From a virus, in IMG/VR virus record IMGVR_UViG_3300034418_005693, positions 1 through 22,042 of that record: a stretch of DNA of 22,042 nucleotides. One strand, given 5' to 3'. Within the stretch, counting starts at the first letter, position 1; each line of letters begins with the position of its first letter. The notes beneath the pieces are model-generated. The model ran no database searches. It saw only the letters and a list, made by a program, of their open reading frames with translations, and had not been told where the DNA came from. Of the stretch, positions 1,696 to 18,208 are shown piece by piece. Both the position numbers and the translations under genes were made by a program.

Positions 1696-2505
1696 TTAAA
1701 TAAGGTATCTAATGATGACAATACCGGAACCGCCAAGACCTGCATATCCGCCTGGATGACCACCACCGCCACCACCTGTATTGACAGAGCCATTGTGATC
1801 ATTGTTGTTTACGTTGTAAGCGCCTCCGTTTCCGCCACCACCTGGACCACCAAAGGAACGGGGGATATTCGTAATAGAACCAGCACCACCACCGCCAGCA
1901 TATGCAACATTGCTGCCTGTAATTGCGCTAATGGAGCCGCTGCCGCCTTGACCGTTTCCATTTGCGCTAGCGCTGCTCCCTACCTGCGCATGACCGCCGC
2001 CGCCGCCAGCAGAGTAGGCACTGCCACCAGCATAAAATCCACTGCCACCGTTATTGCCTTGACCGCCTGTACCTGTTCCACCACTGTAGCCGGTGACATT
2101 AGAGCAGCCACCGCCGCCGCCCGATCCACCGTTACCACCAACCTGCGAAGCGGAGCCGTGACCTCCGCCATTACTGGTAATCGTGCTAAAAGATGAGTCT
2201 TGACCATTGGTTCCAGCAGACCCACCCGCGCCGACAGTAACGGTATAACTTCCACTGCTCAGGGATAACGTACCTGTTCTCATACCACCAGCACCGCCAC
2301 CGCCGGCTGCGTAAAAACCGCCACCACCAGCGCCACCGCCAGCAACCACCAAATACTCAACCGTAGCTCCAAGTGGAGCAGAGGTTACAGTAAACGAATT
2401 TGTACCTGTAAACGTATGGATTTTATAGCCACCAGCGTAAGTAACAGTGCCTCCAGAAGCGATAATACTACTTCCAGAGGTTAGCAACATTTGAATTCCT
2501 GCCAT
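1696..2505 (-). CDS. glycine-rich adhesin-like tail protein (269 aa)
   Basis: After a short beta-rich N-terminal part (residues 1-55, ending VEYLVVAGGG), most of the protein is long glycine runs mixed with Ser, Asn, Ala and Tyr (about residues 55-255). It closes with GGSGIVIIRY. From family knowledge this is the glycine-rich domain of phage tail and bacterial surface proteins. Similar Gly-rich stretches in T-even gp38 adhesins form polyglycine type II sandwiches that bind receptors. The ATG overlaps the stop of the gp17-type fibre by one base (TAATG), so the two are probably made in a fixed ratio. I infer it is a separately encoded host-recognition tip on the fibre. The Gly codons make the minus strand very G-rich here, which explains several long false open frames. 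Confidence 0.8.
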   Translation of the reverse strand: MAGIQMLLTSGSSIIASGGTVTYAGGYKIHTFTGTNSFTVTSAPLGATVEYLVVAGGGAGGGGFYAAGGGGAGGMRTGTLSLSSGSYTVTVGAGGSAGTNGQDSSFSTITSNGGGHGSASQVGGNGGSGGGGGCSNVTGYSGGTGTGGQGNNGGSGFYAGGSAYSAGGGGGHAQVGSSASANGNGQGGSGSISAITGSNVAYAGGGGAGSITNIPRSFGGPGGGGNGGAYNVNNNDHNGSVNTGGGGGGHPGGYAGLGGSGIVIIRYLI

Positions 2506-3413
2506 TAAATTAGCCCTACTCCACTAATAACAAAAACATTACTGGCTACACATAACAAGGTAGCGACACCATATTGATTTAGTGTTCTATTACCAGTATT
2601 GGTAGTACCAGCCTGACGCAGAGTTACACTTGCTCCTTCTGTAATGGTTTGGCTGCTAGTGCTGTCGTTGTAAATACTAATAACATCACCAGAGACAAAC
2701 ACGCCAGCAGGGACGGTTACACCACCTGTAGTGATTGAAATGTGTTTACCACTGTCATTTGCTACAAGAGTATATGCCTGAGTTTGAGGGTTAGCTGGAA
2801 TCTTAGGAAATGCTTGAGCGCCAGAAAAGACGATATTACCAGTCATAGTCCCACCCGATTGAGCTAGGTAAGACGACATCCCAGCCTGAGTTTGATAAGT
2901 AGAACTTGCATCAGCTGTGGTCAAATAAGACTGGGAAAGCTTAGTTGGGGTAACACTGTTGTCAGCTAGCTTAGCTGTTGTTACTGCATTGCTGCCAATC
3001 TTATCCGCAGATACAGCATTAGTAGCGAGCAGGTTGTTGGTAATAGACCCATCAGCCAAATTACCAGTAGAAGCTTGAATAGTAAGGTTCTTCGTTTCTT
3101 GCGCTACATAAAGAGCTTGATTAAAGTTATTATTTAAATCAGTAGCTCTAATAGCAGCACCAGAATAAAAAGTAGCCTCTAGTGCAGCGTCACCTGTTTC
3201 TCGATATATTCGGATTGTCTGTGCAGCAGTAGGATACGGAGCTACAAGAAAAGTGATTTCCTTTTGAACAAAGTCTAAGGAGTAATCAACACCTACAGTC
3301 TTTGCAACGTTATCAACACTTACTTTGACGTGTGCTGCTTCAAGTGCCGGAAAGGTGTAATTAAAGGGTCCGGCAGTCCCGTTACCAGGTAAAGTTGATT
3401 CAGTGTCAGCCAT
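2505..3413 (-). CDS. 17: T7 gp17-type tail fibre, short form (302 aa)
   Basis: Residues 1-110 resemble the virion-anchoring N-terminal domain of T7 tail fibres. They start MADTESTLPGNGTAGPFNYT, continue with KVSVDNVAKTVGVDYSLDF and IRIYRETGDAALEATFYSGA, and then TDLNNNFNQALYVAQE. Residues 120-165 hold short repeats of the form NAVTTAKL / NSVTPTKL, typical of a trimeric fibre shaft. Residues 185-302 form a beta-rich end with YTLVANDSGKHISITTGGVT, common in cyanophage fibres. At 302 residues it is much shorter than T7 gp17 (553) and has no T7-like pyramid/tip region that I recognise. Receptor binding may therefore be delegated to the proteins that follow. A GAGG sequence lies 9 bases before the ATG. 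It follows the gp16-like gene by 11 bases. Confidence 0.88.
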   Translation of the reverse strand: MADTESTLPGNGTAGPFNYTFPALEAAHVKVSVDNVAKTVGVDYSLDFVQKEITFLVAPYPTAAQTIRIYRETGDAALEATFYSGAAIRATDLNNNFNQALYVAQETKNLTIQASTGNLADGSITNNLLATNAVSADKIGSNAVTTAKLADNSVTPTKLSQSYLTTADASSTYQTQAGMSSYLAQSGGTMTGNIVFSGAQAFPKIPANPQTQAYTLVANDSGKHISITTGGVTVPAGVFVSGDVISIYNDSTSSQTITEGASVTLRQAGTTNTGNRTLNQYGVATLLCVASNVFVISGVGLI

Positions 3414-3424
3414 TTAATTAGACC

Positions 3425-6400
3425 TCAATAAGATAAGTTTTGTTTCATGTCTTTCAGGAACTTTTCAGCACCGTCAATGTCTCCTACTTTCAAAAAGTTT
3501 TCTACAGTTTGATTTTTATACTGTTTATCTTGAATACCATCACGGGTAGAGACATATGCTTCAGCCATACGCATAGAAGAACGTAAAGCTGAATCAAGCA
3601 TCATATGCAAGCCTTCAAAGGATTCAAGCTCAGGTTCAAGGTTAAGACTACGAGCACGTTCAAACCTTTTTCTAAACTCTTTACCCTCTGTACTTTGCAT
3701 GACTTGTTGGATAGCTTGTTTAAAGTAACCTTGTTGACCCATGATGTTGGTGACTTCAGACCTCTCTTCATTGCTATACTCAACACCACGTCCATTAGTG
3801 CGAAGACTAGGACGTGCATCGTATTCAATGTCAATAAGGAATTGTTTTTCTGGGGAAATATCTCCATTTACTTTCCAAGGAAGATATGTATTCCAAATCC
3901 TTGCCCAGAAATTAGGAGGTTCACCAACAACACCACCATCAATCCAATCATGAGCATTAGGTAGGGTTTGCTTTAGAATTGGATTACGATTGGCTACCAA
4001 GTCAAAGAAGTTATTATCGACTTCCTTACGTGAAGGTTCAATAAGTCTAGCAAACTCAGCCATAAGGCTAGAGCCAGGAGTCATAGCTGCAGTTGCATAT
4101 GAAGATGTCCAACGGTTAATAGCACCAATGTCACCACGCAACATATCAGTCAACGGTTCAAGTGCAGCCAGCATAGATTTATTGGTTACTGCAGCTGCAA
4201 GAGAGAAAGCTTGAGCACGAAGATGTTCTGCTAGTTCAGCAGAATTAAGTACATAATAGTTATCAAGGATATTAGCAGTAGTTGCTAGCCAATTACTGAC
4301 ACCCGGAATACCATCATAACTTACCCAACCAATACCGGGAACTTTAATAGACCTAGGTTTCCAATCAGCATCACGACGAAGACGTTGCTTTTCTTTATCA
4401 TAAAGACCATCACCGGTGATTTGATCATTAGTAAAAAGACCAACAGCACCCATTACAGAAAGCATACCAATCGCTTTACGGCCAGCAAGTTCAGCCTTAA
4501 CAGTAGTATATGCACTCTTCATAGTCTCTGGTGTGTACTCTACACCTCGACTGGTAAGAAGCTGCTCTACTTGTTCAACAGGCATCTCTTCAAATGGACG
4601 CTTATACTTATGATAAAGATCTATAAACAAACCCATCGGGTTTTGAGATCCAGTAAACTTAAGATCATTGATAGGTGTTTTAGTAAAAAGAAGGAAAGGC
4701 TTAAGAGCTGGAAGCCTACGAAGCAATCCAGAAACAGCATCATTAGTCTTACTGTCCAAGCTCATTGAAATTTCACCAGAAATATGCCTCACAGCAGCAT
4801 CAGTGATGTTATCATTTTCGTCAAACATCTCTCTGTAAACTTTCTGTGACAACTCCTGCGCTTTTTTAGAATCAAGAACAAGCTTACCGCCCTTAGTCAC
4901 CTCATCCCATGCCTTACCACGTGCTTCCCAGTTAGCAACTACAGCTTGTGTAAAGCCGTCAAATGCTTGCATACCACGTTGACCAAATCGTAGCCACGGA
5001 TGATTAGCAAGGTCATTAATCTCTTCAACCTGTGCTAACATAGCTTGGGGACCAAATTCACCTGCTTGAGCCTTAGCATCAGCAAATGCTCGGAAGATTT
5101 GCAGCTGTTTTTCATCAGCAACACCCATATCTTCACGAAGACTCATAACATACGGATCTGAAGCTGAACGCTTAAACACCTGACCCATGTATGAGAAGCC
5201 TTTTTGAAGTGTATCCACTCCAGCAGCATATTGGAAAGCAGCTCTTTTTAAAAGAGTACCTTCGCTAAACATCACATACCCAGCAGACTGAGCAATAGGA
5301 CGCATAGCTAATCCAAAGATATTACTAAGACCAGCTTTAGTTGGTGTGATGACTGCACTCAAGGTTGAGTTATACACATTAGCCATGGAACCTTTAAGGA
5401 CCATAGAAGGTATATCAGCCTCACCGTCATAGAATGCTTTACTAATAAGACCAGTACTATTACGGACATAATTATTGAGTTTAGTAATGCTATTAACATT
5501 ACCATCAGTCAACTCATATGCCATCATCAACGGTGCAAGCATCTCTGGACGTTCTGCTTTAACAGCACGTAGCGTATCAATGGTACCCCTAGCATCAGCT
5601 TGAATACGAGCGATTGCTTTTAAGGTATCATTCTTTTCATTAGCAATTGCATTAGCAGCTCTAGTAGCTTCACCTTTACCAAAAGCTTTACTTGTAGTAT
5701 CAGTAAGACGATTCCACAGGTTAAGCATATTAAGAGCACGACCTCTAGTATAAGAAGTCATACCTTTTTGTGCCATCAGGAATTCAAGACGATCAAGGAT
5801 CTGCTCTTGAGCACGACTTACAGCAGGTGTTTCAGCCATCAGACGCATACCTTGTGCCATGTCAGAGACTTGACCACCAAAGGATGTGCCAACCAATGCC
5901 TGTGCTTTCATGTAATCCAGATCCATATAATCATTCATATACCGCTTAATTGTGTTAAACACAGCAGCATATCCCTCATCTTTAAGGACAAGAGTTTCAG
6001 TATTAGGATCAATGTATTGGAATTTACGGACAGCTTCTTTAAGTTGTGGTGTAGTTAGACCATAGAAGTCATCAGCAAGTCTTTCACCCGCCAATGAAAT
6101 ATCTTTGAATGATAGGTAACGCCCAGAAGCTGTTCTGTAACCGTATTCACCAGCATCTTTAAGTTGTTCACTAAGACCACGAATAATAACATCCGGTCCC
6201 TCAGGAATCTCCAAGCCATACTTTAGTGCAGCTTCAGAAACAACACTACCAACACGACCATAGACGCTATCAAAATTACCTTCAATACGGGCATAGTCAA
6301 CTTGAGCAGCGACAATACCTAGATCATCGACAGACCTAATGCCTGATTCATGGTAACCGTAAAGATCATGAACACCAAAAATAGGTTCATCGAGGTTTTG

Positions 6401-7456
6401 ACTTTTAGAGAAGTTGTACTCCCCTAGTTCATCTAGAGCAGCAGAACGTTTAGCAGCTGATTTAGAGATAGTATCTTCGATGGTTTCTAGGGCATCATCC
6501 TCTAAATTAGCATCAAGCCATGCTTTTGCTTTTTCATTTTCAGGCACCCATTGAGTAGCTCGTCGGATACCACGTCTAGCTTTAAACAGCTTTGCAACAC
6601 CTTCCAACATATCAATACTAGAACCTAACACAGTACCTTCAGTTAGATTTTTAAGGCGCCTGTTATCAGGATCTTCACCGTCTAGCGTGGCAATGTTATC
6701 TGGAATCCAACCAAACTGAGCAGGAAGGTGTTTCTTAGCTAGTCCGGCTAAGTTGTGACCCACTTCTTCGTCAGGCATACCAGCAAGAGTAACCCCTTCA
6801 ACACCTGTACCAACACCAGCGCCAAGCAGTTTCGGACCCAACCATTTAATGAAAGGATCAGAGAAAAACTTCATGCCGCTAGTTGCAGACGTTAGTCCAG
6901 TAGTGAGCCCGCTAGTAATTGCAACAGTAGGTAAAACGACCGAACTAAGCTCACGAATACTTTGAGCAACATCATCTTGAAACTTAGGTAATTTCAGAGA
7001 CTTACCATCAGGTCGAAAAGGATTTTCAATTCCAGGAACTTCTTTCTTTGGTATTACATTGATCATGTTGAGCGCAAAATCAGCAACACCTGTACCTATA
7101 GCACCAAGTCTTTCAAAGGTACGTTGAGCGTAAGTCCCTATATCTTCACCAAGAGTAGCATCAGGATCACCGCTACCATAAATAAAACCAGAGCCAGTTT
7201 TATATTTCCGTTCTGGTTGTACCACACTTGTGGGTGGTTGTTGTGGTTCAGCTGCAGGTTGTGTTGGTTGCGGTTGCTGCTGAACAGGAGTAGGAGCAGG
7301 AGTAGCTTGTTCTGCAGCAAGTGCCTGTTGGTTAGCCATAGCTTCCATTCTTGCAAAGTCTTGTTCACTTTGCGCGGCTTGCAGCATCAAAGCTTGTTCT
7401 TCTTCGGGAGTCAAGTCCGGCGTACCGAACAAGACTTCATTCATCGGATCTGTCAT
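3425..7456 (-). CDS. 16: internal virion / ejection protein, gp16-like (1343 aa)
   Basis: This is the longest gene in the window. Its length is close to T7 gp16 (1318 residues), and it holds the same place, last of three core proteins and just before the tail fibre. It opens MTDPMNEVLFGTPDLTPEEE, then has an Ala/Gln/Pro-rich unstructured stretch at about residues 40-80 (TPVQQQPQPTQPAAEPQQPP). A long, mostly helical body follows with hydrophobic patches, for example AIGMLSVMGAVGLF near the C-terminal third. I see no lytic transglycosylase motif here, unlike T7 gp16, whose N-terminus carries one. That activity sits in the neighbouring gp15-like protein. The expected role is to form the conduit across the cell envelope and pull DNA in during ejection. 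Confidence in the assignment rests on size and synteny rather than on motifs. Confidence 0.82.
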   Translation of the reverse strand: MTDPMNEVLFGTPDLTPEEEQALMLQAAQSEQDFARMEAMANQQALAAEQATPAPTPVQQQPQPTQPAAEPQQPPTSVVQPERKYKTGSGFIYGSGDPDATLGEDIGTYAQRTFERLGAIGTGVADFALNMINVIPKKEVPGIENPFRPDGKSLKLPKFQDDVAQSIRELSSVVLPTVAITSGLTTGLTSATSGMKFFSDPFIKWLGPKLLGAGVGTGVEGVTLAGMPDEEVGHNLAGLAKKHLPAQFGWIPDNIATLDGEDPDNRRLKNLTEGTVLGSSIDMLEGVAKLFKARRGIRRATQWVPENEKAKAWLDANLEDDALETIEDTISKSAAKRSAALDELGEYNFSKSQNLDEPIFGVHDLYGYHESGIRSVDDLGIVAAQVDYARIEGNFDSVYGRVGSVVSEAALKYGLEIPEGPDVIIRGLSEQLKDAGEYGYRTASGRYLSFKDISLAGERLADDFYGLTTPQLKEAVRKFQYIDPNTETLVLKDEGYAAVFNTIKRYMNDYMDLDYMKAQALVGTSFGGQVSDMAQGMRLMAETPAVSRAQEQILDRLEFLMAQKGMTSYTRGRALNMLNLWNRLTDTTSKAFGKGEATRAANAIANEKNDTLKAIARIQADARGTIDTLRAVKAERPEMLAPLMMAYELTDGNVNSITKLNNYVRNSTGLISKAFYDGEADIPSMVLKGSMANVYNSTLSAVITPTKAGLSNIFGLAMRPIAQSAGYVMFSEGTLLKRAAFQYAAGVDTLQKGFSYMGQVFKRSASDPYVMSLREDMGVADEKQLQIFRAFADAKAQAGEFGPQAMLAQVEEINDLANHPWLRFGQRGMQAFDGFTQAVVANWEARGKAWDEVTKGGKLVLDSKKAQELSQKVYREMFDENDNITDAAVRHISGEISMSLDSKTNDAVSGLLRRLPALKPFLLFTKTPINDLKFTGSQNPMGLFIDLYHKYKRPFEEMPVEQVEQLLTSRGVEYTPETMKSAYTTVKAELAGRKAIGMLSVMGAVGLFTNDQITGDGLYDKEKQRLRRDADWKPRSIKVPGIGWVSYDGIPGVSNWLATTANILDNYYVLNSAELAEHLRAQAFSLAAAVTNKSMLAALEPLTDMLRGDIGAINRWTSSYATAAMTPGSSLMAEFARLIEPSRKEVDNNFFDLVANRNPILKQTLPNAHDWIDGGVVGEPPNFWARIWNTYLPWKVNGDISPEKQFLIDIEYDARPSLRTNGRGVEYSNEERSEVTNIMGQQGYFKQAIQQVMQSTEGKEFRKRFERARSLNLEPELESFEGLHMMLDSALRSSMRMAEAYVSTRDGIQDKQYKNQTVENFLKVGDIDGAEKFLKDMKQNLSY

Positions 7457-7469
7457 TTTCAGTTAAAAA

Positions 7470-10460
7470 TTAATGGACACCACGATATTCAAAATGTCCT
7501 CCATGGCTACCTGGATAATCTACAAGATACCAACCATAACGTTGACCATTTTGGATCATCCAATTCTTTGATTTACCATGAATATCAATAGCCTCTCCAT
7601 GTACATGCCTAGAGCCAGGTGCTCCACCAACAGCAATGTTCTTCTCTTCAGTTCGTTGAGAACTAGTAATGTCAGAACCTTTCACAGCACCACCAGAAGC
7701 TTGAACCATTTGAGCAAAAGCATTAGCAGCATCACGGCTCATAACAACAGGTCGTCCCTTCTCATCTTGCATAGACACAGGTTGCCATCCAAATCCGATA
7801 TCATAATTACTGGTTCTTTGGATAAACCCTGGACGTATCAAAGAACGAGATTGAAGCCCTTGACCATGACCATACTTATACGCTTCCCTCATAACATTAC
7901 CAAAGTATTCCCTATTTTCTTTGGACATACCTACACCACCAGGACCACTATTGTAAGCACTGATAGCCCAGTTAAGACTATTGCCAGGGTTATTGGGATC
8001 ACGCAAATTTTTGATCAAATACCGCGCAGCTCCATCAATAGCTTGTGGAATGTTTAATGGGTCAACACCCAGTTCTGCAGCAGTGCCAGGCATAAACTGT
8101 GCAATGCCAGTAGCTCCAGCACTACTCTTACGCTGTCCAGAAAGAACAGCAGGATCAAACCCGTCACTTTCATGATGCAAAAGTCCAGCAAGTACACCAG
8201 GAGGCAGGTTATACTTAGTAGCAGTTTGTTGAATCAACTGGCCGATGTTGATACCATTATACGATGGGACAAGTTCAGAAATAAACTCTTTAGTGCTACC
8301 CATCGCTCGCGTAGAGATCTCAGGCGTCTGGTATTGATCTAGGAACCGAACAAGATTTGGGTCTGCCTTAGTTCTAAACTTAGACATCGAAGGTGGCATG
8401 ATAGGATCCCTACCTTCTGCACGTCGGGCTCGATTAATAACAGCTAACGGGCTGATACCAAACCTTGCACCAATGTATTGAGCCATAGGATCAAATTTAT
8501 ACCCAGGCTTTTGCATCTCTTGCTCAATAGTATTGAGTTCTGAAGTAGTAAAAATAGCACCATTTGTGTCTAAGATTTTACTACCAAGCCTGTTAAGGTT
8601 GCTTTGAACCCACTGACCACGTGCAGCAGCGGCTGCTGGAACAGACGGATTACCTTTGAATTGAGCGTAATCACCATCCTTAAAGAATTGAGGATTAGCG
8701 ATTTCCTTTTCAAATTCTGCTCTAACAAAAGCTTCAGCATTTGCTATAGCATTAGCGTCACCAACTGATTGGAGTTCTGCTACTTTTTTAAGAAACTTAG
8801 TATGCAAACGCTGCTCCATCAGAGGAACAGTAGGACTAAATTGTCCTTCCCTTTTTGCTTGAATTTGAGGAGGTTTCTTAGCTAGTGCAGATAGTGATGC
8901 TAGCTGAGCTTTGTAGTTATCCGTATTGCTACGTCCAGCTGATCCTTGTCTAGCTGCTGTTTGGAACTGACTAATAACGCTGCTGTGGTATCCAGAGCTT
9001 TCCATCAACTCCATGGTCAAAATACCACGGCTTCTGAGATCTTCAGCTTCTTTCATTTGACGTTGAATCTCCAAAGCATCAACACTTTGGTTCCTCATCA
9101 TCACTTCAAGACGTTGACTGGTTTGACCAGGAAAGCGGACCCCATAATTATTAATAACAGCTTGAACATCAGCAGCTGAATACCCTCCAGGAATCTGATT
9201 AAGTTGCTCAACTGCTGCATCTTCAAATGCCTTACGTTCACGAGTATCGAATGCTTCTTTCTGGCCTAATTTTGCCAGTACACGTTGACGTGCATCAAAG
9301 ATAGCTTGTGTAACTTCTTGAGCTGCAGGACTTGTGAAAATATCCCCGTAAGTAACCTCCTTACCATTATACATAGTAGGGGTTGCAAGAAGATCCTTCC
9401 AACTTTTAACGTAATCTTCTCGACGCTCACTTTCAAATCCTGCTTTGTAACTTCTGAAAACATCAGAAATGTAGGCACTTCTAGCTGGACCGCTAAGGGA
9501 TTCAAGTTTTGGCACTACACGTCCGTTTATAATATCCTCGTTGGTAGAGAAATCAATCTGACGTTGTGCTTCGTCCTTAGCAAAAGCTTTATATTGAGCG
9601 TTACTTTGTTGATTAAATTCCGCCTCAATATTACGCATAAGAGGATGAACCTTAGAGCCAAGAATGGCTGGACTAAGGTTTAACATCCCAGAACTAGCTA
9701 CATAGTCTGAACGAATGCGTCCAAAGATTTGGTTGTATGCTGCTAAGTCACGCCCCTCTGTTTCAGCAAGGCTGAGCTGACGACCATCACCTAGATCATA
9801 TTTTGTTGAATACTTATCAAGTACGTCAGTTCTAAAATTAGTGCCAAGGTTTGTAGTTAAAGCTGTAGACTCATTCCATAACTTAGCATTGCTGTTTTCG
9901 TTTAGGAATCGTATCTGTTGAATTGATGCACCAGTTCTATCGACAATAGCACGAATAGCACTATTTTCGGCATAAGCTTGATCACTAAAGTTTCGATCCA
10001 ACTTATGGATCTCCATCAACTCTTTGGTAGAGATACCTGTAGCGTAAAGTGTTTTCTCAACAGCTAACTTACGACCAGTTTCAATCTTTTCGTTTACTGC
10101 TTGAATTGTTTGAAACGCAGTACTAGAGATTTTGCTAATTGCATCAAGTGTAGCAAGTTCAGACTTACTCTGGGCTTGGGCATTACTGATAGTAGCATCG
10201 TAATTGCCCATAATTTGATTTTGAATAGCTTCGAGATTCTTACTCTCAAAGTCAAACAACTGTTGGCGGTTATTGAACTCAAGTTTGTTATTGATTTCAA
10301 TAGCATTACCAATGCGTTGTCGTTCATCAATATTAAATTTCGCAGCCTCCCTCATGTAGTTAGACTGCTTTTTAGCTTTGTCTTCTACAAGTGAAGCTAC
10401 ATCTGGTGCCTTGATTGGGTTAAAGCCGCTTGGCCTCGCAAATGAATTAAATGTAGCCAT
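7470..10460 (-). CDS. 15: internal virion protein gp15-like with lytic transglycosylase and M15-type peptidase domains (996 aa)
   Basis: Residues 1-700 are a helical, Gln/Ala-rich body like other ejection-core proteins. About residues 740-865 form an SLT-type lytic transglycosylase. The HHES motif gives catalytic Glu764, GATGIAQFMPGTA lies at 782-794, and ISAYNSGPGGV has the AYN signature at 835-837. Residues about 895-996 look like an M15 (VanY/DD-peptidase type) zinc peptidase. SRHVHGEAID supplies the HxxGxAxD pattern (His952, Asp959), and GGHFEYRG gives the third metal ligand, His989. The catalytic Glu/Asp normally three residues before that His is a His here (986), so peptidase activity is uncertain. 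The protein would cut glycan strands, and perhaps peptide stems, as the phage core enters the cell wall. T7 gp15 is 747 residues and lacks these domains. The gene starts 5 bases after the gp14-like stop and I see no clear Shine-Dalgarno. Confidence 0.88.
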   Translation of the reverse strand: MATFNSFARPSGFNPIKAPDVASLVEDKAKKQSNYMREAAKFNIDERQRIGNAIEINNKLEFNNRQQLFDFESKNLEAIQNQIMGNYDATISNAQAQSKSELATLDAISKISSTAFQTIQAVNEKIETGRKLAVEKTLYATGISTKELMEIHKLDRNFSDQAYAENSAIRAIVDRTGASIQQIRFLNENSNAKLWNESTALTTNLGTNFRTDVLDKYSTKYDLGDGRQLSLAETEGRDLAAYNQIFGRIRSDYVASSGMLNLSPAILGSKVHPLMRNIEAEFNQQSNAQYKAFAKDEAQRQIDFSTNEDIINGRVVPKLESLSGPARSAYISDVFRSYKAGFESERREDYVKSWKDLLATPTMYNGKEVTYGDIFTSPAAQEVTQAIFDARQRVLAKLGQKEAFDTRERKAFEDAAVEQLNQIPGGYSAADVQAVINNYGVRFPGQTSQRLEVMMRNQSVDALEIQRQMKEAEDLRSRGILTMELMESSGYHSSVISQFQTAARQGSAGRSNTDNYKAQLASLSALAKKPPQIQAKREGQFSPTVPLMEQRLHTKFLKKVAELQSVGDANAIANAEAFVRAEFEKEIANPQFFKDGDYAQFKGNPSVPAAAAARGQWVQSNLNRLGSKILDTNGAIFTTSELNTIEQEMQKPGYKFDPMAQYIGARFGISPLAVINRARRAEGRDPIMPPSMSKFRTKADPNLVRFLDQYQTPEISTRAMGSTKEFISELVPSYNGINIGQLIQQTATKYNLPPGVLAGLLHHESDGFDPAVLSGQRKSSAGATGIAQFMPGTAAELGVDPLNIPQAIDGAARYLIKNLRDPNNPGNSLNWAISAYNSGPGGVGMSKENREYFGNVMREAYKYGHGQGLQSRSLIRPGFIQRTSNYDIGFGWQPVSMQDEKGRPVVMSRDAANAFAQMVQASGGAVKGSDITSSQRTEEKNIAVGGAPGSRHVHGEAIDIHGKSKNWMIQNGQRYGWYLVDYPGSHGGHFEYRGVH

Positions 10461-10465
10461 AGTTA

Positions 10466-11668
10466 TTAAGGAGAGAAACCGGAAGTATTGGAACCAAAGT
10501 AATTACCCGCAATACTTGATCCTCCAGGTATTTGAACAGCTCCACCACTGTAATCACCAGCTGCACTACCGCCTACAGCAAGACCAGTTCCACCGCCATC
10601 AGGGGTTGGGATATTACCAGATACCGCACCTAGCACAGCTCCACCGATTGAAGGTGCTGCAGCACTAAGTCCAGCAAGAAGCGGATTAACTGTAGCAGCT
10701 CGGTAAGGCACAACCTCAGGAAGCGGAATAACCTTAGCTGGTGTTTGTAGCTCAGGTCTAGGCAGATTTGCAGGAAGGGGCAATGCAGGAGGAATAGCAG
10801 GAGCCAAACCAACACTAGTGATGGCGTTAAGATCAGCTTGGAACTTCTGAATAGCAGCATCTCTACGCATAGCAGTGGCTTGCATACCAAGACTCAAACG
10901 AGAAGCAGCAAGTTGTGCTTTAGAGAGATAGAATGTATCGTTTAGTTGCTCTAACTTTTGACCAAGTTGCGATGAGGTAAGTCCAAAATTCAACTCAGCG
11001 TTCATTACATTCTGAATGATTTTAGAAGTCAATAGACCAGTTTCTGCAATGGATGCTGCTGCTGCTTTTTCAGCACTAACACCCATACCGCCTTTAGCTT
11101 GTGCTTCGCCAGCTTGTTTAAGTCCTTGGACGTAAGCTAGTTGTTGATCAATTTGACCACTTGCACCAGCTTGTTGACGGGCAACATCTGCTTGTACAAA
11201 GTCTAAAGCTACACCACGTTGAGCATATTGAAACTCCAACATGGTAGATTTCTCTTGGAAATCAAGTTGAAGATTCTGCTCTTGTTCCCACCTAGCTGCA
11301 TCTTGAAGGGAGAAATCAAGGGCAATATTATTAAAGTTTAACTGTTGAAGACCTGTCTGTTGCCTCAGAGCATAGGCACGTTTTTCTTGATTATAATCAA
11401 ACGCCCTGATCCCCATCTGATAACGCCAGGAATCAAGAGCAGTTTGATCACGATAGGCGTACTCTTCTTCAATATTTTGGCGTTGGATGTTAATCCCTTC
11501 TTTTAGGAATTTACGATCCCTACGCAGGACTTGCATCGTGTACCGACGATTAGCCCTAGCAGCCTTAGTCCTTGCTTCAGCTTCTCGTCTAGCAGCAGCG
11601 TTTTGAGCGTTTGCTCCAAAAGCACCTTGAGCAAAGTTAAATGCGATTTTACCTAATTCTAGAAGCAT
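10466..11668 (-). CDS. 14: internal virion protein, gp14-like (400 aa)
   Basis: I choose the ATG at 11668 over the TTG at 11674 because AGGAGG lies 8 bases before the ATG, an ideal spacing, and only 2 bases before the TTG. Residues 1-60 contain an Ala/Arg-rich helix (ARREAEARTKAARANRRY). Residues 60-285 are a long helical Gln-rich region with a partly repeated segment (IALDFSLQDAAR near 115 and VALDFVQADVAR near 153). Residues 289-321 are a Pro-rich linker, and the tail to residue 400 is Gly/Ser-rich. T7 gp14 is 196 residues, so this protein is about twice as long, but it is in the gp14 position between gp12 and gp15. It probably forms the outer-membrane pore part of the ejection machine. Confidence 0.8.
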   Translation of the reverse strand: MLLELGKIAFNFAQGAFGANAQNAAARREAEARTKAARANRRYTMQVLRRDRKFLKEGINIQRQNIEEEYAYRDQTALDSWRYQMGIRAFDYNQEKRAYALRQQTGLQQLNFNNIALDFSLQDAARWEQEQNLQLDFQEKSTMLEFQYAQRGVALDFVQADVARQQAGASGQIDQQLAYVQGLKQAGEAQAKGGMGVSAEKAAAASIAETGLLTSKIIQNVMNAELNFGLTSSQLGQKLEQLNDTFYLSKAQLAASRLSLGMQATAMRRDAAIQKFQADLNAITSVGLAPAIPPALPLPANLPRPELQTPAKVIPLPEVVPYRAATVNPLLAGLSAAAPSIGGAVLGAVSGNIPTPDGGGTGLAVGGSAAGDYSGGAVQIPGGSSIAGNYFGSNTSGFSP

Positions 11669-11670
11669 CC

Positions 11671-14148
11671 TCAAGCCCTCCTGTAATAACGAGGTGAGTA
11701 ATTACCTTCCCATGTCATACTATTCAATGTAACAGGGAACGGTGAGGTGCTATTAATTTTCAATTGGAAGCTAGTGTTACGTTGATGAATAGGCACAGTG
11801 ACTACCGTATTTTGTACTAATGGTGCATTACTTTCAATATAACGATCTGCTTCCTGCACTGATTGAATAGAACGCCACTCAGCAGAACCATACTTTTTCT
11901 GATAGAATCCTACAAGACCACTAAGACCAAGGTTAAACTTCATCCTAGCAATAGTCAAGTTAGCACTCCAATCCTTAGGTTGGTTGCCTGGAGCATAGAA
12001 ATAAGTAGGTAGCTCTACTTCATAAGTGTATTCATAACCAATAGCAAGCTGACTCTCTTGACCTGTCCAATCACCAGGAATTGACCAATCACTTGTATCA
12101 ATATCCATCACAAAACCAGAATTAGGTTGATTGGTTTGTTGTGAAATAAACAGTTTAGATAGACCATTAATACCGACTGGTGTGGTTGTAGTTACCGTTG
12201 GAATTGTAACTGCAACAGGCTTCTTACCAGCAATGTGGGTGTACAAAGTTGGGAGTGTTGATCGTTTAGTAACCGAATTATAAGTAATGGTTCCAGCGTT
12301 AGATGCTGGATAAAGGAAATCAAGACGAACGGTAGGCATCGTAATGTTACCAAACGTCGGGAAACGACTACTAACTGGATATGGTGTTTGCACCATACTG
12401 ACCATACCAAGTTGGTAGTCAGAACCATTCTTGGTTACAAAGAATAGAACGTTCTGAATAATTTCCATGAATTGAATTGATCCAGGTAGATCCCATTTGA
12501 ACCAAGCCTGCATCAATTGTTGCTCCCCGTTACTGTAGAACTTATACAGGTAGATACATTTTGTGGTATCACTGTATGCAGCCAGTAGGGAGTTCTGTGG
12601 ATCTGTTGCTAGCTTTGTAATATCTACAGGTAGGTACTCAGCTACAACCTGACTAATGTCTACAGTGGTCGGTGTCTCACTACCACCACGTGGTTGCATA
12701 CCGAACACTTTAGAGTAAAGCGGTGTACGGGATACAAAGCTAACGTAACTACCCATGTCCTTAACAGGTACATCAGCAGCACTTTCATATTGACCAATTG
12801 TACGAATAATTGAGTCAAACGGTGTCAGGTTACCACTTTCAGAATACATCAAGAACTGTTCAAATTGACTGAACAGAATCAAACCTTGTGGTCTAGAAAC
12901 AGCAGAGTGTAGGGTACCAACCCTAAAGCTGGATACATCCACATCAACAGGATCAGCAGCGGTAACTGTCTGAGCACTAGCATAGAAGAAATTAGGAAAA
13001 TCCTTAGCCACACTCATAACAACTGAGTCTGGAGATAAGAATGCTAAGCGGTTACTATTCAGTACACCAAACTTAATTGTCTGTCCTACAAAAGATGGGA
13101 TTGGATTACCGTAATCATTACCTGAAGCACGAGGCGCCCAGGTTTCTTGAGAGATAGTAAACGTATTAAGTCCAGTATTAACCAACTTATAGGGCATAGT
13201 AGTGGCATCAAAACCAGCACTAGCTAGTTTATTTGTACCACCATCATCATCCCAGCCTAGCGATTCTTCCCAGTAACCTGTACCAGCATCTGTAGTAGAT
13301 CCGCTTACACCTTTGAATTGAACAAAGTAAGAATTACGCTCGTTGATAGAGTTGATAATTTTAACCCTACGACCGTTAGCTGTAGTAGCAGACAACCTAC
13401 TAGGACTTGTAACTTCATCTTGATAAGATGTCAAACCAAGACCGCTATCCCCAGCCTTTACTTCCAAGGTAAATGGTGAGGCATGTGTAATCTCCAGTGA
13501 GCTACCATATTTAGCTACGGTAAATCCTGTAGTATTAGTAGCAATAGCGGTTGATAATGTCGTCAATACATGATCAAGTGTATCGTTACTTGATATTGGA
13601 TGTGAGCAAGCAATACCGTTAAGGTAGATAGTATAAGTACCCTGTTCAATAAAAGAGACAACAACTGTACCACGAGTACCGAGAGTATAGGTACTCTTAG
13701 GCTGCATAGCAACTGTTTTTGTTTTGTTGATCAAGTATGTCTGATCAAGATAAGTTACGTTGTGGAAGTTATCTACTGGATTAGATGCTGTAAGGTAACT
13801 AATTACATCTGCATTAGTTTTACCAGTAATGGTAGCTTCAGTCCATACATACTGACTCCCATTCAATGTAGGAATCATATTCCAGATTCTAATATCACCA
13901 GAACTACTAACTACACCAATGTAACTTTCATCATCATCACGGTTAATGTCAAACCAATAACCATTTTCAAGACTTGCGCTATTAGCTAAGGTAGTAAGAA
14001 ACTGACTACCATTTCTTTTTACAAGACCAAAGGTAGGATCTGGGTAACCATTTAGTATTTCAGCTACTTGTCCTGGAGACTTTTTAATATCTTCTTGTGT
14101 ACTAATGCCACCAAGAAACGTAGAAATTTGTTGTGTAATTGCTGCCAT
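11671..14148 (-). CDS. 12: tail tubular protein B, gp12-like (825 aa)
   Basis: The start is the ATG at 14148, which forms TAATG with the gp11 stop and has AGAGG 5 bases upstream. An upstream GTG at 14154 would overlap that site. The protein opens MAAITQQISTFLGGISTQED, a typical beginning for T7-type tail tubular protein B: QQISTFLGGIS is followed soon by a GYPDPTFGLVKRNGSQFL stretch that I recognise from this family. The length is close to T7 gp12 (794). It is an all-beta-looking protein that forms the nozzle of the short tail below the gp11 ring. The gene ends 3 bases before the gp14-like start, and its last codons carry that gene's AGGAGG ribosome binding site. Confidence 0.92.
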   Translation of the reverse strand: MAAITQQISTFLGGISTQEDIKKSPGQVAEILNGYPDPTFGLVKRNGSQFLTTLANSASLENGYWFDINRDDDESYIGVVSSSGDIRIWNMIPTLNGSQYVWTEATITGKTNADVISYLTASNPVDNFHNVTYLDQTYLINKTKTVAMQPKSTYTLGTRGTVVVSFIEQGTYTIYLNGIACSHPISSNDTLDHVLTTLSTAIATNTTGFTVAKYGSSLEITHASPFTLEVKAGDSGLGLTSYQDEVTSPSRLSATTANGRRVKIINSINERNSYFVQFKGVSGSTTDAGTGYWEESLGWDDDGGTNKLASAGFDATTMPYKLVNTGLNTFTISQETWAPRASGNDYGNPIPSFVGQTIKFGVLNSNRLAFLSPDSVVMSVAKDFPNFFYASAQTVTAADPVDVDVSSFRVGTLHSAVSRPQGLILFSQFEQFLMYSESGNLTPFDSIIRTIGQYESAADVPVKDMGSYVSFVSRTPLYSKVFGMQPRGGSETPTTVDISQVVAEYLPVDITKLATDPQNSLLAAYSDTTKCIYLYKFYSNGEQQLMQAWFKWDLPGSIQFMEIIQNVLFFVTKNGSDYQLGMVSMVQTPYPVSSRFPTFGNITMPTVRLDFLYPASNAGTITYNSVTKRSTLPTLYTHIAGKKPVAVTIPTVTTTTPVGINGLSKLFISQQTNQPNSGFVMDIDTSDWSIPGDWTGQESQLAIGYEYTYEVELPTYFYAPGNQPKDWSANLTIARMKFNLGLSGLVGFYQKKYGSAEWRSIQSVQEADRYIESNAPLVQNTVVTVPIHQRNTSFQLKINSTSPFPVTLNSMTWEGNYSPRYYRRA

Positions 14149-14816
14149 TACCACCTCTGAAGTGCTTTAAATGGTTGGAAAGATTGGTACGCTGAACCTT
14201 CCCGTGGTGTACCAAAGAAGGAATAATCACCTTGGTTGCATTCATACTCTAGAGCCATTGCCCTACAGTACCCTTCTTTTTGTTGGAGGATTTGATATTG
14301 GTTACTATCGCCTACAATACGGCTAGCAACAATACTAGCAGCACGTGCAGTGATGTAATCTTGAATAGGAGACGGAAGATCAGTCCATTCTCTCAACCAA
14401 ACTACATCACAATAAATGGTATCATTCCATTCATCAGTGTGAGCACGGCGGTCATAAAGACGATCAGCCTTTTTAACTAGATCAATATAAGCATATGCTG
14501 AGTAAGTAGGATTGTTAGAAATATCTACCTGCAAAGCATTGACAGGGAAAGCAATGTGCTTATTGCCATCAGGTGACAATGGGTAGTCATATTCTTTATT
14601 GAATGTCCATCCTTCGGCCTGGACTTCTCTAGATACTTCTTGAAAGGTATCATAAGCAATCGCAACGTCCGGGTTGGTTACTATGGTAACCGTAGAACCG
14701 TCAGCACGTTCTACAGTTTCAGTTTCCAAAGTGGTCACAGGCGCTTGACCAACTGACGCCAAAATTTGGTTAATAGCTTGTAGCTCAGTTTTAGAGCCAG
14801 TGGTGTGAAATGACAT
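14148..14816 (-). CDS. 11: tail tubular protein A, gp11-like (222 aa)
   Basis: The protein begins MSFHTTGSKTELQAINQILA and continues SVGQAPVTTLET, the usual opening of T7-type tail tubular protein A (T7 gp11, 196 residues). Later phrases such as FQEVSREVQAEGWTFNKEYD, YIDLVKKADRLYDRRAHTDEW and PSPIQDYITARAASIVASRIVG also fit this family. It forms the ring between portal and nozzle. It is the first gene after the terminator at 14833-14871, and I see no good Shine-Dalgarno before its ATG, only an A/T-rich stretch. The stop overlaps the gp12 start by one base, so gp12 is likely coupled to it. Confidence 0.93.
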   Translation of the reverse strand: MSFHTTGSKTELQAINQILASVGQAPVTTLETETVERADGSTVTIVTNPDVAIAYDTFQEVSREVQAEGWTFNKEYDYPLSPDGNKHIAFPVNALQVDISNNPTYSAYAYIDLVKKADRLYDRRAHTDEWNDTIYCDVVWLREWTDLPSPIQDYITARAASIVASRIVGDSNQYQILQQKEGYCRAMALEYECNQGDYSFFGTPREGSAYQSFQPFKALQRW

Positions 14817-16700: not shown

Positions 16701-16850
16701 TTACTTCTTCTTAGCTGTCTTAGCTGCCTTCTTAAATTGAGCAGCAGTAGGAGCACCGGCAGTACCAGGCTTCCTCATCTTCTCACCACTACCAGCAGCA
16801 ATACGCTTACGCTTGGCATGGATGTTTGCATAGAGTCCAGGTTTAGCCAT
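16701..16850 (-). CDS. small basic protein downstream of psbA (49 aa), DUF6321-like
   Basis: The translation begins [20 protein letters not shown], continues SGEKMRKPGTAGAPTAAQFK, and ends in a Lys-rich tail (KAAKTAKKK). This matches my memory of a small cyanophage and pelagiphage family (DUF6321) with the core GLYANIHAKRKRIAAGSGE. The protein is strongly basic with no membrane segment, so nucleic-acid binding is plausible but unproven. Its ATG overlaps the psbA stop by one base (TAATG), so its translation is probably coupled to that of D1. The function is unknown. Confidence 0.78.
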   Translation of the reverse strand: MAKPGLYANIHAKRKRIAAGSGEKMRKPGTAGAPTAAQFKKAAKTAKKK

Positions 16851-17905
16851 TAGCCAATTACCGGTGCAGTGTGTGTAGCCAGGTCGAGGGGGAAGTTGTG
16901 CGCGTTGCGCTCGTGCATCACTTCAAAACCAAGACCAGCTCGGTTAAGGATGTCTGCCCAGGTGTTAATCACTTGCCCTTCAGATGAGAGAAGCGATTGG
17001 TTGAAGTTAAACCCATTCAGGTTAAACGCCATTGTAGAAACACCAAGAGCAGCAAACCATATACCCAAAACGGGCCAAGCAGCAAGGAAGAAATGAAGGC
17101 TACGGCTATTATTGAAACTTGCATATTGGAAGATCAAACGACCGAAGTATCCATGAGCAGCTACAATGTTGTAGGTCTCTTCTTCTTGCCCAAATTTATA
17201 GCCTTTGTTTTGGCTTTCGATTTCTGTGGTCTCCCGTACCAACGAGCTAGTCACAAGGGAACCATGCATCGCACTGAAAAGCGACCCACCGAACACTCCT
17301 GCTACTCCCAACATGTGGAAGGGATGCATCAAGATGTTGTGCTCCGCTTGAAAGACGAGCATATAGTTGAACGTCCCACTGATTCCAAGAGGCATGGCGT
17401 CCGAGAAGGAGCCCTGACCGAAGGGATAGACCAAGAAGACTGCAGTAGCTGCTGCCACTGGTGCGGAATAAGCGACGAAAATCCATGGTCGCATTCCTAG
17501 TCGATAGCTAAGTTCCCACTCTCGTCCCATGTAAGCATAGATGCCAATGAGGAAGTGGAAGACGGTAAGCTGGAAAGGACCGCCGTTGTAGAGCCATTCG
17601 TCAAGTGAATTAGCTTCCCAAATTGGGTAGAAGTGTAGTCCGATGGCATTGCTGCTCGGAACGACGGCTCCCGATATGATGTTGTTTCCATAGAGAAGGC
17701 TCCCAGCTACAGGTTCGCGGATGCCATCAATATCGACTGGTGGTGCCGCTACGAATGCGATGATAAAACAAATGGCTGCAGCAAGGAGACACGGAATCAT
17801 CAGTGTTCCAAACCAGCCAACATAAAGACGGTTATCTGTACTGGTTACCCAGTCACAAAAACGCTCCCAGTAGTTCTGAGAGCGTGGAGCTGCAATTGCA
17901 GTCAT
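16850..17905 (-). CDS. psbA: photosystem II reaction-centre protein D1 (351 aa)
   Basis: The full-length D1 sequence is unmistakable: [60 protein letters not shown] and [20 protein letters not shown]. It has five membrane helices. Numbering is one less than in Synechocystis. Tyr160 (the redox-active YZ), Asp169, Glu188, His189, His197 (P680 ligand), His331, Glu332, Asp341 and Ala343 are all present, so the manganese-cluster ligands are intact. Glu129 in GREWELS corresponds to position 130, the high-light (D1:2) form. The C-terminal extension removed by CtpA is only 8 residues (THTAPVIG). There is no intron or frameshift. The product would replace photodamaged host D1 in infected cells. It starts 6 bases after the rlpA stop and overlaps the next ATG. 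Confidence 0.99.
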
Positions 17906-17911
17906 AGTTAG

Positions 17912-18208
17912 TTAGTCAAGTCGTGTTACTTTGACTCGTCCAACTCCGGTGCCAGTGAAGCCGATAGCATCAGCTGCACCTTTACTGAGATCGATCTCAC
18001 GACCAGGGATATAAGGTCCACGGTCATTAACCCGTACAATGGCACACCGTTGATAGCACACCTTTAGTCGGGTACCAAACGGGAGTGTCTTGTGCGCTGC
18101 AGTAAGGGCATTTTGATTGTATCGCTCACCATTAGCAGTAAGGTTTCCGTGGAATCCAGGACCGTACCAGCTAGTGATGACTGACAGAGTAGTTAGAAGA
18201 GGAATCAT
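17912..18208 (-). CDS. rlpA: RlpA-like double-psi beta-barrel lytic transglycosylase (98 aa or longer)
   Basis: Almost the whole protein is one RlpA double-psi beta-barrel domain: SWYGPGFHGNLTANGERYNQ, then NALTAAHKTLPFGTRLKV, VRVNDRGPYIPGREIDLSKG and ADAIGFTGTGVGRVKV. The residues matching the catalytic Glu, His and Asp of Pseudomonas RlpA are present (Glu28, His39, Asp62). RlpA cuts peptide-free glycan strands of peptidoglycan, so this may weaken the cell wall. Two Cys (51 and 55) could form a disulfide in the periplasm. From the ATG at 18208 the hydrophobic leader is only about 12 residues and there is no Shine-Dalgarno. An ATT at 18232 has AGGAG 8 bases upstream and would give a proper signal peptide (MKVPCFIIMIPLLTTLSVIT). 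It lies directly before psbA in an otherwise photosynthetic block. Confidence 0.88.
   Translation of the reverse strand: MIPLLTTLSVITSWYGPGFHGNLTANGERYNQNALTAAHKTLPFGTRLKVCYQRCAIVRVNDRGPYIPGREIDLSKGAADAIGFTGTGVGRVKVTRLD

Follow-up and report, generated by a model that had tools for sequence, protein, structure and literature searches.

Wall opening by short-tailed phages is known in detail mainly for T7, in which one transglycosylase is carried on gp16. A wall enzyme on the gp15-position protein is nevertheless already in print: two reports note lysozyme activity for the gp15-position protein of phages K1E/K1-5 (PMC8954989) and describe OEP of phage PhiM1 (8vb2) as a gp15-equivalent core protein with a lysozyme-like domain, Gly718-Ser903, located in the virion by cryo-electron microscopy (PMC11440229). 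Here we analysed the virus record IMGVR_UViG_3300034418_005693 (positions 1 to 22,042; this whole 22,042-bp stretch is called the window), in which a 996-amino-acid (aa) protein ends in two wall-enzyme domains. This protein probably serves a T7-like cyanopodovirus as its gp15-position ejection (core) protein, with a C-terminus that is probably an exchangeable two-slot wall-opening tip.

Two wall-enzyme domains on a gp15-position protein

The 996-aa protein is encoded by an open reading frame (ORF) at 7470-10460 on the minus strand, and its residues 741-996 correspond to window 7470-8240 (minus strand). SLT (PF01464) matched residues 742-850 with an E-value of 1.3e-13 and 51 bits against a curated cut-off of 21.3, and Peptidase_M15_3 (PF08291) matched residues 931-966 with an E-value of 1.9e-7 and 31.6 bits against a cut-off of 23.2. 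The second match spans profile positions 45-80 of 108, and our own profile, made from the window protein together with relatives, widened this domain to residues 882-996. The original prediction, which placed a lytic transglycosylase and an M15-type domain at the C-terminus of the gp15-position protein, is borne out by these matches. The protein is divided as follows.

7470..10460, minus strand: gp15-position protein, probable ejection protein, 996 aa, with a helical backbone and two wall-enzyme domains (ORF, Pfam, PHROG 24152 for residues 1-727 only)
8301..10460, minus strand: backbone, residues 1-720 (identity profile, slot matrices; AlphaFold2 confidence 75.1; Foldseek without a match at E<=0.001, T7 gp15 chains in ranks 1-3)
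8301..8336, minus strand: joint 1, QYQTPEISTRAM, residues 709-720, conserved linker ahead of slot 1 (slot comparison)
7881..8273, minus strand: slot 1, SLT lytic transglycosylase domain of type SLTa, residues 730-860 (Pfam PF01464 at 742-850; own profile; fold like MltF, Z 8.9)
8169..8171, minus strand: codon of the predicted catalytic Glu764 (aligns with T7 gp16 E37; Glu in 7/7 SLTa rows of alignment A6)
7812..7877, minus strand: joint 2, KYGHGQGLQSRSLIRPGFIQRT, residues 862-883, conserved linker between the slots (slot comparison; the DNA homology of loci L031 and L034 breaks inside it)
7473..7817, minus strand: slot 2, M15_3/LAS metallopeptidase-type domain, residues 882-996 (Pfam PF08291; own profile; Z 9.4 to VanXYg)
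7605..7607, minus strand: codon of the predicted zinc ligand His952 (invariant, 24/24 M15-bearing rows)
7584..7586, minus strand: codon of the predicted zinc ligand Asp959 (invariant, 24/24 M15-bearing rows)
7494..7496, minus strand: codon of the predicted zinc ligand His989 (invariant, 24/24 M15-bearing rows)

Slot 1 has the SLT catalytic motifs GxxGxxQ and AYNxG (E764, GATGIAQF at 782-789 and SAYNSGPG at 834-841). In slot 2, the zinc motif SxHxxGxxxD with its distal His (S950, H952, G955, D959, H989) was present in all 24 M15-bearing rows of A6, the alignment behind the residue counts, which replaced an alignment (A5) where SLT-only rows fell into M15 columns. The tip was modelled with AlphaFold2 (residues 715-996) and compared with the PDB by Foldseek and VIA-align; the mean predicted local distance difference test (pLDDT) score was 66.7, with about 73-93 across most of the M15 part and below 50 in model residues 107-164. 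The M15 part aligned with VanXYg (4f78) at Z 9.4 over 100 residues with a root-mean-square deviation of 2.3 A, with LdcB/VanY (VanYB) at Z 8.0-9.0 and with the Zn D,D-peptidase 1lbu at Z 8.0, in agreement with the LAS/M15 fold originally predicted for the last domain. The SLT part has a lysozyme-like fold that aligned with MltF at Z 8.9 (84-88 residues) and also with Slt, whereas T7 gp16 scored lower at Z 7.1. Foldseek alone gave no match for the tip model at E<=0.001, its best E-value being 1.1e-2 for the LAS fold.

The gene order of the window is T7-like, as judged from Pfam and PHROG matches, and psbA, recognised by its translation and by its presence at the same place in S-CBP4, lies at 16850-17905; the virus is therefore a cyanopodovirus. 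The 996-aa gene lies between the gp14- and gp16-position genes and downstream of the nozzle gene, and the order nozzle, gp14-position, 996-aa protein and gp16-position is the same in S-CBP4.

11671..14154, minus strand: tail nozzle protein, gp12-type (Pfam Phage_nozzle, E 4.4e-178)
10466..11674, minus strand: gp14-position protein (assigned by its place; PHROG 20153, of unknown function; the ORF begins with TTG and its true start is uncertain)
3425..7456, minus strand: 1343-aa internal virion protein at the gp16 position, in which no wall-enzyme domain was found (match to PHROG 6651, internal virion protein; no Pfam match; hhalign)

A model of backbone residues 1-725, built from 42 sequences (mean pLDDT 75.1, predicted template modelling score 0.37), was almost wholly helical. 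T7 gp15 chains occupied Foldseek ranks 1-3 among 350,542 PDB chains with E-values of 6.6e-3 to 9.9e-3; with rank 7 included, the T7 gp15 matches reached 9.8e-2, at probabilities of 0.75-0.97. Because T7 gp15 is the top-ranked match to the modelled fold and the locus is syntenic, the 996-aa protein is likely a gp15-type ejection protein. Family models break at the joint, the PHROG 24152 match ending at residue 727, which may explain why large core proteins are annotated as hypothetical.

Four observations weigh against a gp15-type core protein with two working enzymes. First, the backbone fold match falls under the usual thresholds, with no Foldseek match at E<=0.001 and a VIA-align Z of 6.6 to T7 gp15 (216-304 residues); this value and the Z of 6.0 to the PhiM1 core protein (8vb2) are both below the safe level for helical matches. 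Second, hhalign detected no sequence homology to T7 gp15 (probability 1.7%) or K1-5 gp35 (probability 0.5%), a non-detection that does not exclude homology to T7 gp15. Third, studied M15 enzymes of the VanX/DacA/Ply500 kind have a catalytic-base Asp or Glu three residues before the last zinc His; the corresponding residue is His986 in the window, and over the 24 rows it is His in 19, Gly in 4 and Asn in 1. Since the canonical acid is missing at its usual place, we class the domain by its LAS/M15_3 fold and do not count it as a proven M15 peptidase, and the invariant D899 or D930 might stand in for the acid. Fourth, sister M23-type domains in slot 2 no longer have HxH and are missing another ligand as well: the first zinc His is replaced by Gln in S-CBP4, L007, L030, L035, L038, L039, L041, L047, L050, L053 and L084 (L numbers are our handles for loci), so that the 10 SLT+M23 rows aligned and L084 read QPG[VIM]D instead of HxGxD, while S-SRP01 keeps both HxGxD and HxH. 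This degenerate domain is probably not a working M23 peptidase, judging from its motifs, and slot 2 therefore need not be catalytic everywhere.

The last two observations would suit a tip in which only the transglycosylase cuts and slot 2 is a weak or dead zinc fold kept for peptidoglycan binding or positioning. The conservation of the domain weighs against this, as Arg936 and two further Asp are invariant in the same 24 M15 rows as the zinc ligands, Ser950 and Gly955. In addition, slot 2 is the most constrained part between the window and L025, with nonsynonymous (dN) and synonymous (dS) divergence of 0.041 and 0.54 compared to 0.125 and 0.84 in slot 1, and purifying selection was observed in the backbone and both slots. 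We therefore regard an inactive slot 2 as unlikely, although it deserves to be kept in mind.

The gp16-like protein had been predicted to be without a wall enzyme, and the sequence searches agreed. The gp16-position protein of the window had no Pfam match at E<=1, and no wall-enzyme family was found at E<=1 in 23 gp16-position rows (from the window and from 20 isolates or named phages, two of which have the protein split over two ORFs), whereas T7 gp16, the control in the same scan, gave SLT at 15-127 with an E-value of 1.7e-31. The hhalign probability of the window protein was 0.3% each to T7 gp16 and to its N-terminal SLT domain. A hidden transglycosylase was thus not found by Pfam (23 rows) or hhalign, in a sequence-only search that a very divergent domain could escape.

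As metagenomic contigs can be chimeric, an assembly chimera or a frame artefact was also considered. A second IMG/VR contig matches the window at 99.95% identity across 13,390 bp, and the two-domain tail occurs on the same backbone in six other contigs (L025, L044, L049, L111, L112 and L116); therefore the window tip is not an assembly artefact. With purifying selection acting on the backbone and both slots as well, the probability of an artefact of either kind is negligible.

Exchange of the tip among relatives

Identity between relatives was compared separately for the backbone and the two slots, the joints of the window, L044, L049 and L053 having been missed by the automatic finder and placed by hand. 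The window and S-CBP4 share 70% identity up to joint 1; beyond it, identity falls to 24% (slot 1) and 23% (slot 2). Against L025, the window showed 70% identity in the backbone, 80% in slot 1 and 92% in slot 2, and against L049, the respective values were 29%, 77% and 88%, with a synonymous divergence of 0.39 in slot 2 compared to about 1.85 (near saturation) in the backbone. Between L030 and L039 slot 1 alone was exchanged (backbone 82%, slot 1 45%, slot 2 84%), and L049 and L053 share 62% in the backbone, 82% in slot 1 and 24% in slot 2. For L031 and L034, identity is 94% in the backbone and 98% in slot 1 and drops to 26% in slot 2. Their DNA is 95.7% identical up to L031 position 2740, within joint 2, has no match until 3109 and continues at 98.3% identity; the replaced stretch is ~370 bp and identity returns just past the stop codon of the gene, a pattern that shows a single exchange event.

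Three SLT types (SLTa, SLTb, SLTc) and three second domains (M15, M23-like, reversed-order LAS-like) were found in the slots, and 20 two-slot proteins displayed 7 of the 9 possible combinations: SLTa+M15 (4), SLTa+M23 (2), SLTb+M23 (10), SLTb+M15 (1), SLTb+reversed LAS (1), SLTc+M23 (1) and SLTc+reversed LAS (1). A backbone tree of 20 rows requires at least 5 changes of slot 1 and at least 6 changes of slot 2. With groups named from domain content and L044 forming a long branch, a single clade was rejected for the M15 rows (approximately unbiased test, p 4e-7) and for the SLTa rows (9e-7). Eight rows were left out of the tree as a copy of the window (L026), a copy of S-CBP4 (L027), incomplete (L028, L033, L037) or near-copies (L051, L055, L102), all of them SLTb+M23 except L026; L111, L112 and L116 (SLTa+M15) are outside the tree. 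Judging from these alignments, each slot is exchanged independently through conserved linkers while the backbone stays.

The wider survey covered 80 gp15-position proteins: those of the window and L007, 20 from isolates or named phages and 58 from IMG/VR loci; L026 and L027 among them are copies. The IMG/VR loci were drawn from 80 gp16 loci, the best 80 of 450 relatives; 22 of these 80 were too short to show the upstream gene. The last 330 residues of the 80 proteins fell into 38 clusters, and at least one member of each was scanned. Scanned members of 18 clusters had a wall-enzyme family at E<=0.001, 12 of the 38 above the Pfam cut-off, and the families were SLT, SLT_3, Phage_lysozyme2, Glucosaminidase, Hydrolase_2, M15_3 and M23; in more distant cyanopodoviruses the place of the tip is taken by lysozyme-, glucosaminidase- or SleB-like domains. 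No wall-enzyme family was found at E<=0.001 in the other 20 clusters, which include P-SSP7, P-SSP2, P-SSP10, P-GSP1, NATL1A-7, S-TIP28 and Syn5, the best wall-enzyme match of the Syn5 protein having an E-value of 0.013. Pattern searches revealed LAS motifs in a few of the proteins without a family match (S28-C3 and its cluster, L093, L098).

The original prediction related the double enzyme to the thick cyanobacterial wall. If it were adapted to thick, highly cross-linked cyanobacterial peptidoglycan, tips should follow the host wall; nearly all named relatives of the window are indeed cyanophages, and two complementary activities would suit a cross-linked wall. However, S-CBP1, S-CBP3 and S-CBP4, all isolated on Synechococcus CB0101 (PMC4646655), carry a glucosaminidase with a reversed M23 motif, SLT_3 with a reversed LAS motif, and SLT with a degenerate M23 domain, respectively. 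Three different tips on one host strain make plain matching to host wall chemistry unlikely. Several cyanophages (P-SSP7, P-SSP2, P-GSP1, NATL1A-7) moreover show no recognisable wall enzyme on the gp15-position protein, and the enteric phages K1-5 and PhiM1 also have C-terminal wall enzymes. We consider host matching improbable, and this part of the original prediction was not supported.

In T7-like cyanophages, the C-terminus of the gp15-position protein may instead be a dedicated exchange port, with two linker-bounded slots refilled independently by recombination from a gene pool shared with T4-like cyanophages and slot 2 also taking metalloenzyme folds of reversed motif order. Turnover of the port would be so rapid that phages of the same host strain differ in it, which would suggest selection for change of the tip itself over wall fit. 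We put this forward tentatively, as somewhat more doubtful than not.

Reversed LAS-like motifs, in which YHxH stands before HxxGxAxD at a distance of about 38-45 residues, were found in the gp15-position proteins of S28-C3, S-CBP3, L029, L034, L099 and L101, with no Pfam match in the rows scanned (S28-C3, S-CBP3, L029, L034, L099). Reversed M23 motifs (STG[PA]HLDV before GS[HF]G[IV]D) occur in DSL-LC07, S-CBP1 and P60 (L014, L016, L018), behind a glucosaminidase or lysozyme-like domain. Both kinds are defined by motif order alone and are candidates for a circularly permuted LAS and a permuted M23 domain. When the reversed LAS domain was compared with M15 by profile, the probability was only 1.8%, and a PDB sequence search gave nothing alike; PHROGs and NCBIfam gave no name to the reversed-LAS pieces of L099 and L034, nor did they assign the reversed-M23 pieces from P60 and S-CBP1 to a LAS or M23 family. 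The gp15-position proteins of L093 and L098 end in a further LAS-like domain, which has its motifs in the normal order (HxxDEAFD ... HLHLG) and no Pfam match. L118 has a distant gp15-like backbone (E 2e-36) with M15 at residues 699-811, and none of three SLT profiles matched ahead of it.

The M15 domain in other viruses and the lysis candidate

Relatives of the M15 domain accounted for 137 of 260 pattern matches in viral contigs and for 1 of 17 in prokaryotes, the latter being a fragment in a 4.2-kb contig binned as Lokiarchaeota; the 84,980 genomes were scanned in a single pass with one restrictive nine-residue pattern. These counts favour a viral subfamily, as far as the pattern can tell, and disfavour a host origin, although hosts could still be the source. 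The domain context was read for 53 of 80 M15 loci. The same subfamily is present in hub-region proteins of the cyanomyoviruses S-RIM50, S-SM1, S-RIM2 and S-B68 at 42-52% identity. Unlike the window's, these are long proteins near tail/hub genes of contractile-tail phages, where M15 is partnered by Phage_lysozyme (S-SM1), glucosaminidase (S-RIM2) or GH19 (S-B68), and IMG/VR relatives of this kind are without the gp15 backbone.

Related cyanomyovirus M15 domains are annotated as lysozyme murein or endolysin, and the two domains of the window could accordingly act in release at the end of infection and not in entry. However, they are attached to a structural backbone of 720 residues that occupies the ejection-core position, the copy in cyanomyoviruses also occurs in long proteins adjoining the baseplate-hub genes gp26/gp51, and the window has a separate RlpA-like ORF that is a better candidate for lysis. 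A role in lysis is therefore very improbable.

The RlpA-like ORF (17912-18208, minus strand) encodes a 98-aa double-psi beta-barrel protein and adjoins psbA (Pfam DPBB_1 3.2e-25; TIGR00413 8.9e-35). It is conserved at 82-84% identity in S-CBP4, S-CBP3, S-CBP1 and DSL-LC07, unannotated in some records, whereas the gp16-position proteins of these phages are about 20-73% identical to that of the window. It may be a lysis gene, perhaps travelling with psbA. Another ORF (1696-2505, minus strand), downstream of a 302-aa ORF at 2505-3413, encodes a very glycine-rich 269-aa protein, possibly an adhesin or tail protein.

Proposed mechanism and comparison with known ejection systems

We infer the virion location, ejection, activity and order of action of the 996-aa protein by analogy, the precedent for a virion-borne wall enzyme on a gp15 equivalent being the cryo-electron microscopy of PhiM1 (PMC11440229). 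As in T7 and PhiM1, the protein would exit the head before the DNA and contribute to a channel, its helical backbone helping to build the channel ejected into the periplasm. The lytic transglycosylase of slot 1 would cut glycan strands, the LAS/M15 zinc domain of slot 2 would most likely cut peptide stems or cross-links, and both together would make a local wall hole for the channel. The gp15-position protein would then carry out the task of the T7 gp16 N-terminus. The gp16 equivalent is a tetramer in the T7/PhiM1 core (PMC11440229), so an enzyme carried at the gp15 position instead of the gp16 position would probably be present in more copies per virion. The tip would behave as a mobile module, in which recombination at or near the conserved linkers swaps either domain or both and keeps the backbone.

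The task of opening the wall would thus fall to the gp15-position protein and be shared by two chemically different domains, which are swapped like tool heads. The tip exchanges offer a ready natural experiment because they lie between close relatives and have clean breakpoints; in L031/L034, the difference over several kb is almost confined to one ejection-protein domain. With such natural pairs, limits set by the entry enzyme on host range, infection speed or phage competition on picocyanobacteria become testable.

T7 gp15/gp16 share the ejection-core gene order with the window, T7 gp16 carries an SLT domain with E37, and T7 gp15 is the best match to the backbone model. T7 differs in having SLT at the N-terminus of gp16 and is not known to have a second peptidase-type domain. 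The gp15-position protein of S-CBP4 (AGK86641.1) shares the gene order, a 70% identical backbone and an SLT followed by a LAS-type domain at the same place, but its SLT is of another type (slot 1 24% identical) and its slot 2 is M23-like without HxH. Escherichia phage K1-5 gp35 (EPKV1_gp38) likewise stands at the gp15 position, is of similar length (982 aa) and has its wall enzyme in the C-terminal part, with Phage_lysozyme matching residues 776-910; unlike the window protein, it has one T4-type Phage_lysozyme domain with no second found, and hhalign shows no backbone similarity. In PhiM1, too, a wall enzyme is part of the gp15-equivalent core protein (OEP), whose fold matches weakly (Z 6.0), and the gp16 equivalent of this phage has a second wall-enzyme-like domain (PMC11440229), whereas none was found in the gp16-position protein of the window. 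The different division of labour originally predicted for this ejection machine therefore stands in that the enzymes are at the gp15 position and none was found at the gp16 position, but K1-5 and PhiM1 (PMC11440229) contradict its uniqueness. In the open-access literature, subscription papers being outside the scope, we found neither a two-enzyme tip nor an exchangeable one described for a cyanophage ejection protein. As far as this literature shows, three features are new: two wall-enzyme domains paired on one ejection protein, the independent exchange of both through fixed joints, and an M15 domain common to T4-like cyanophages, in which it is coupled to other glycan cutters.

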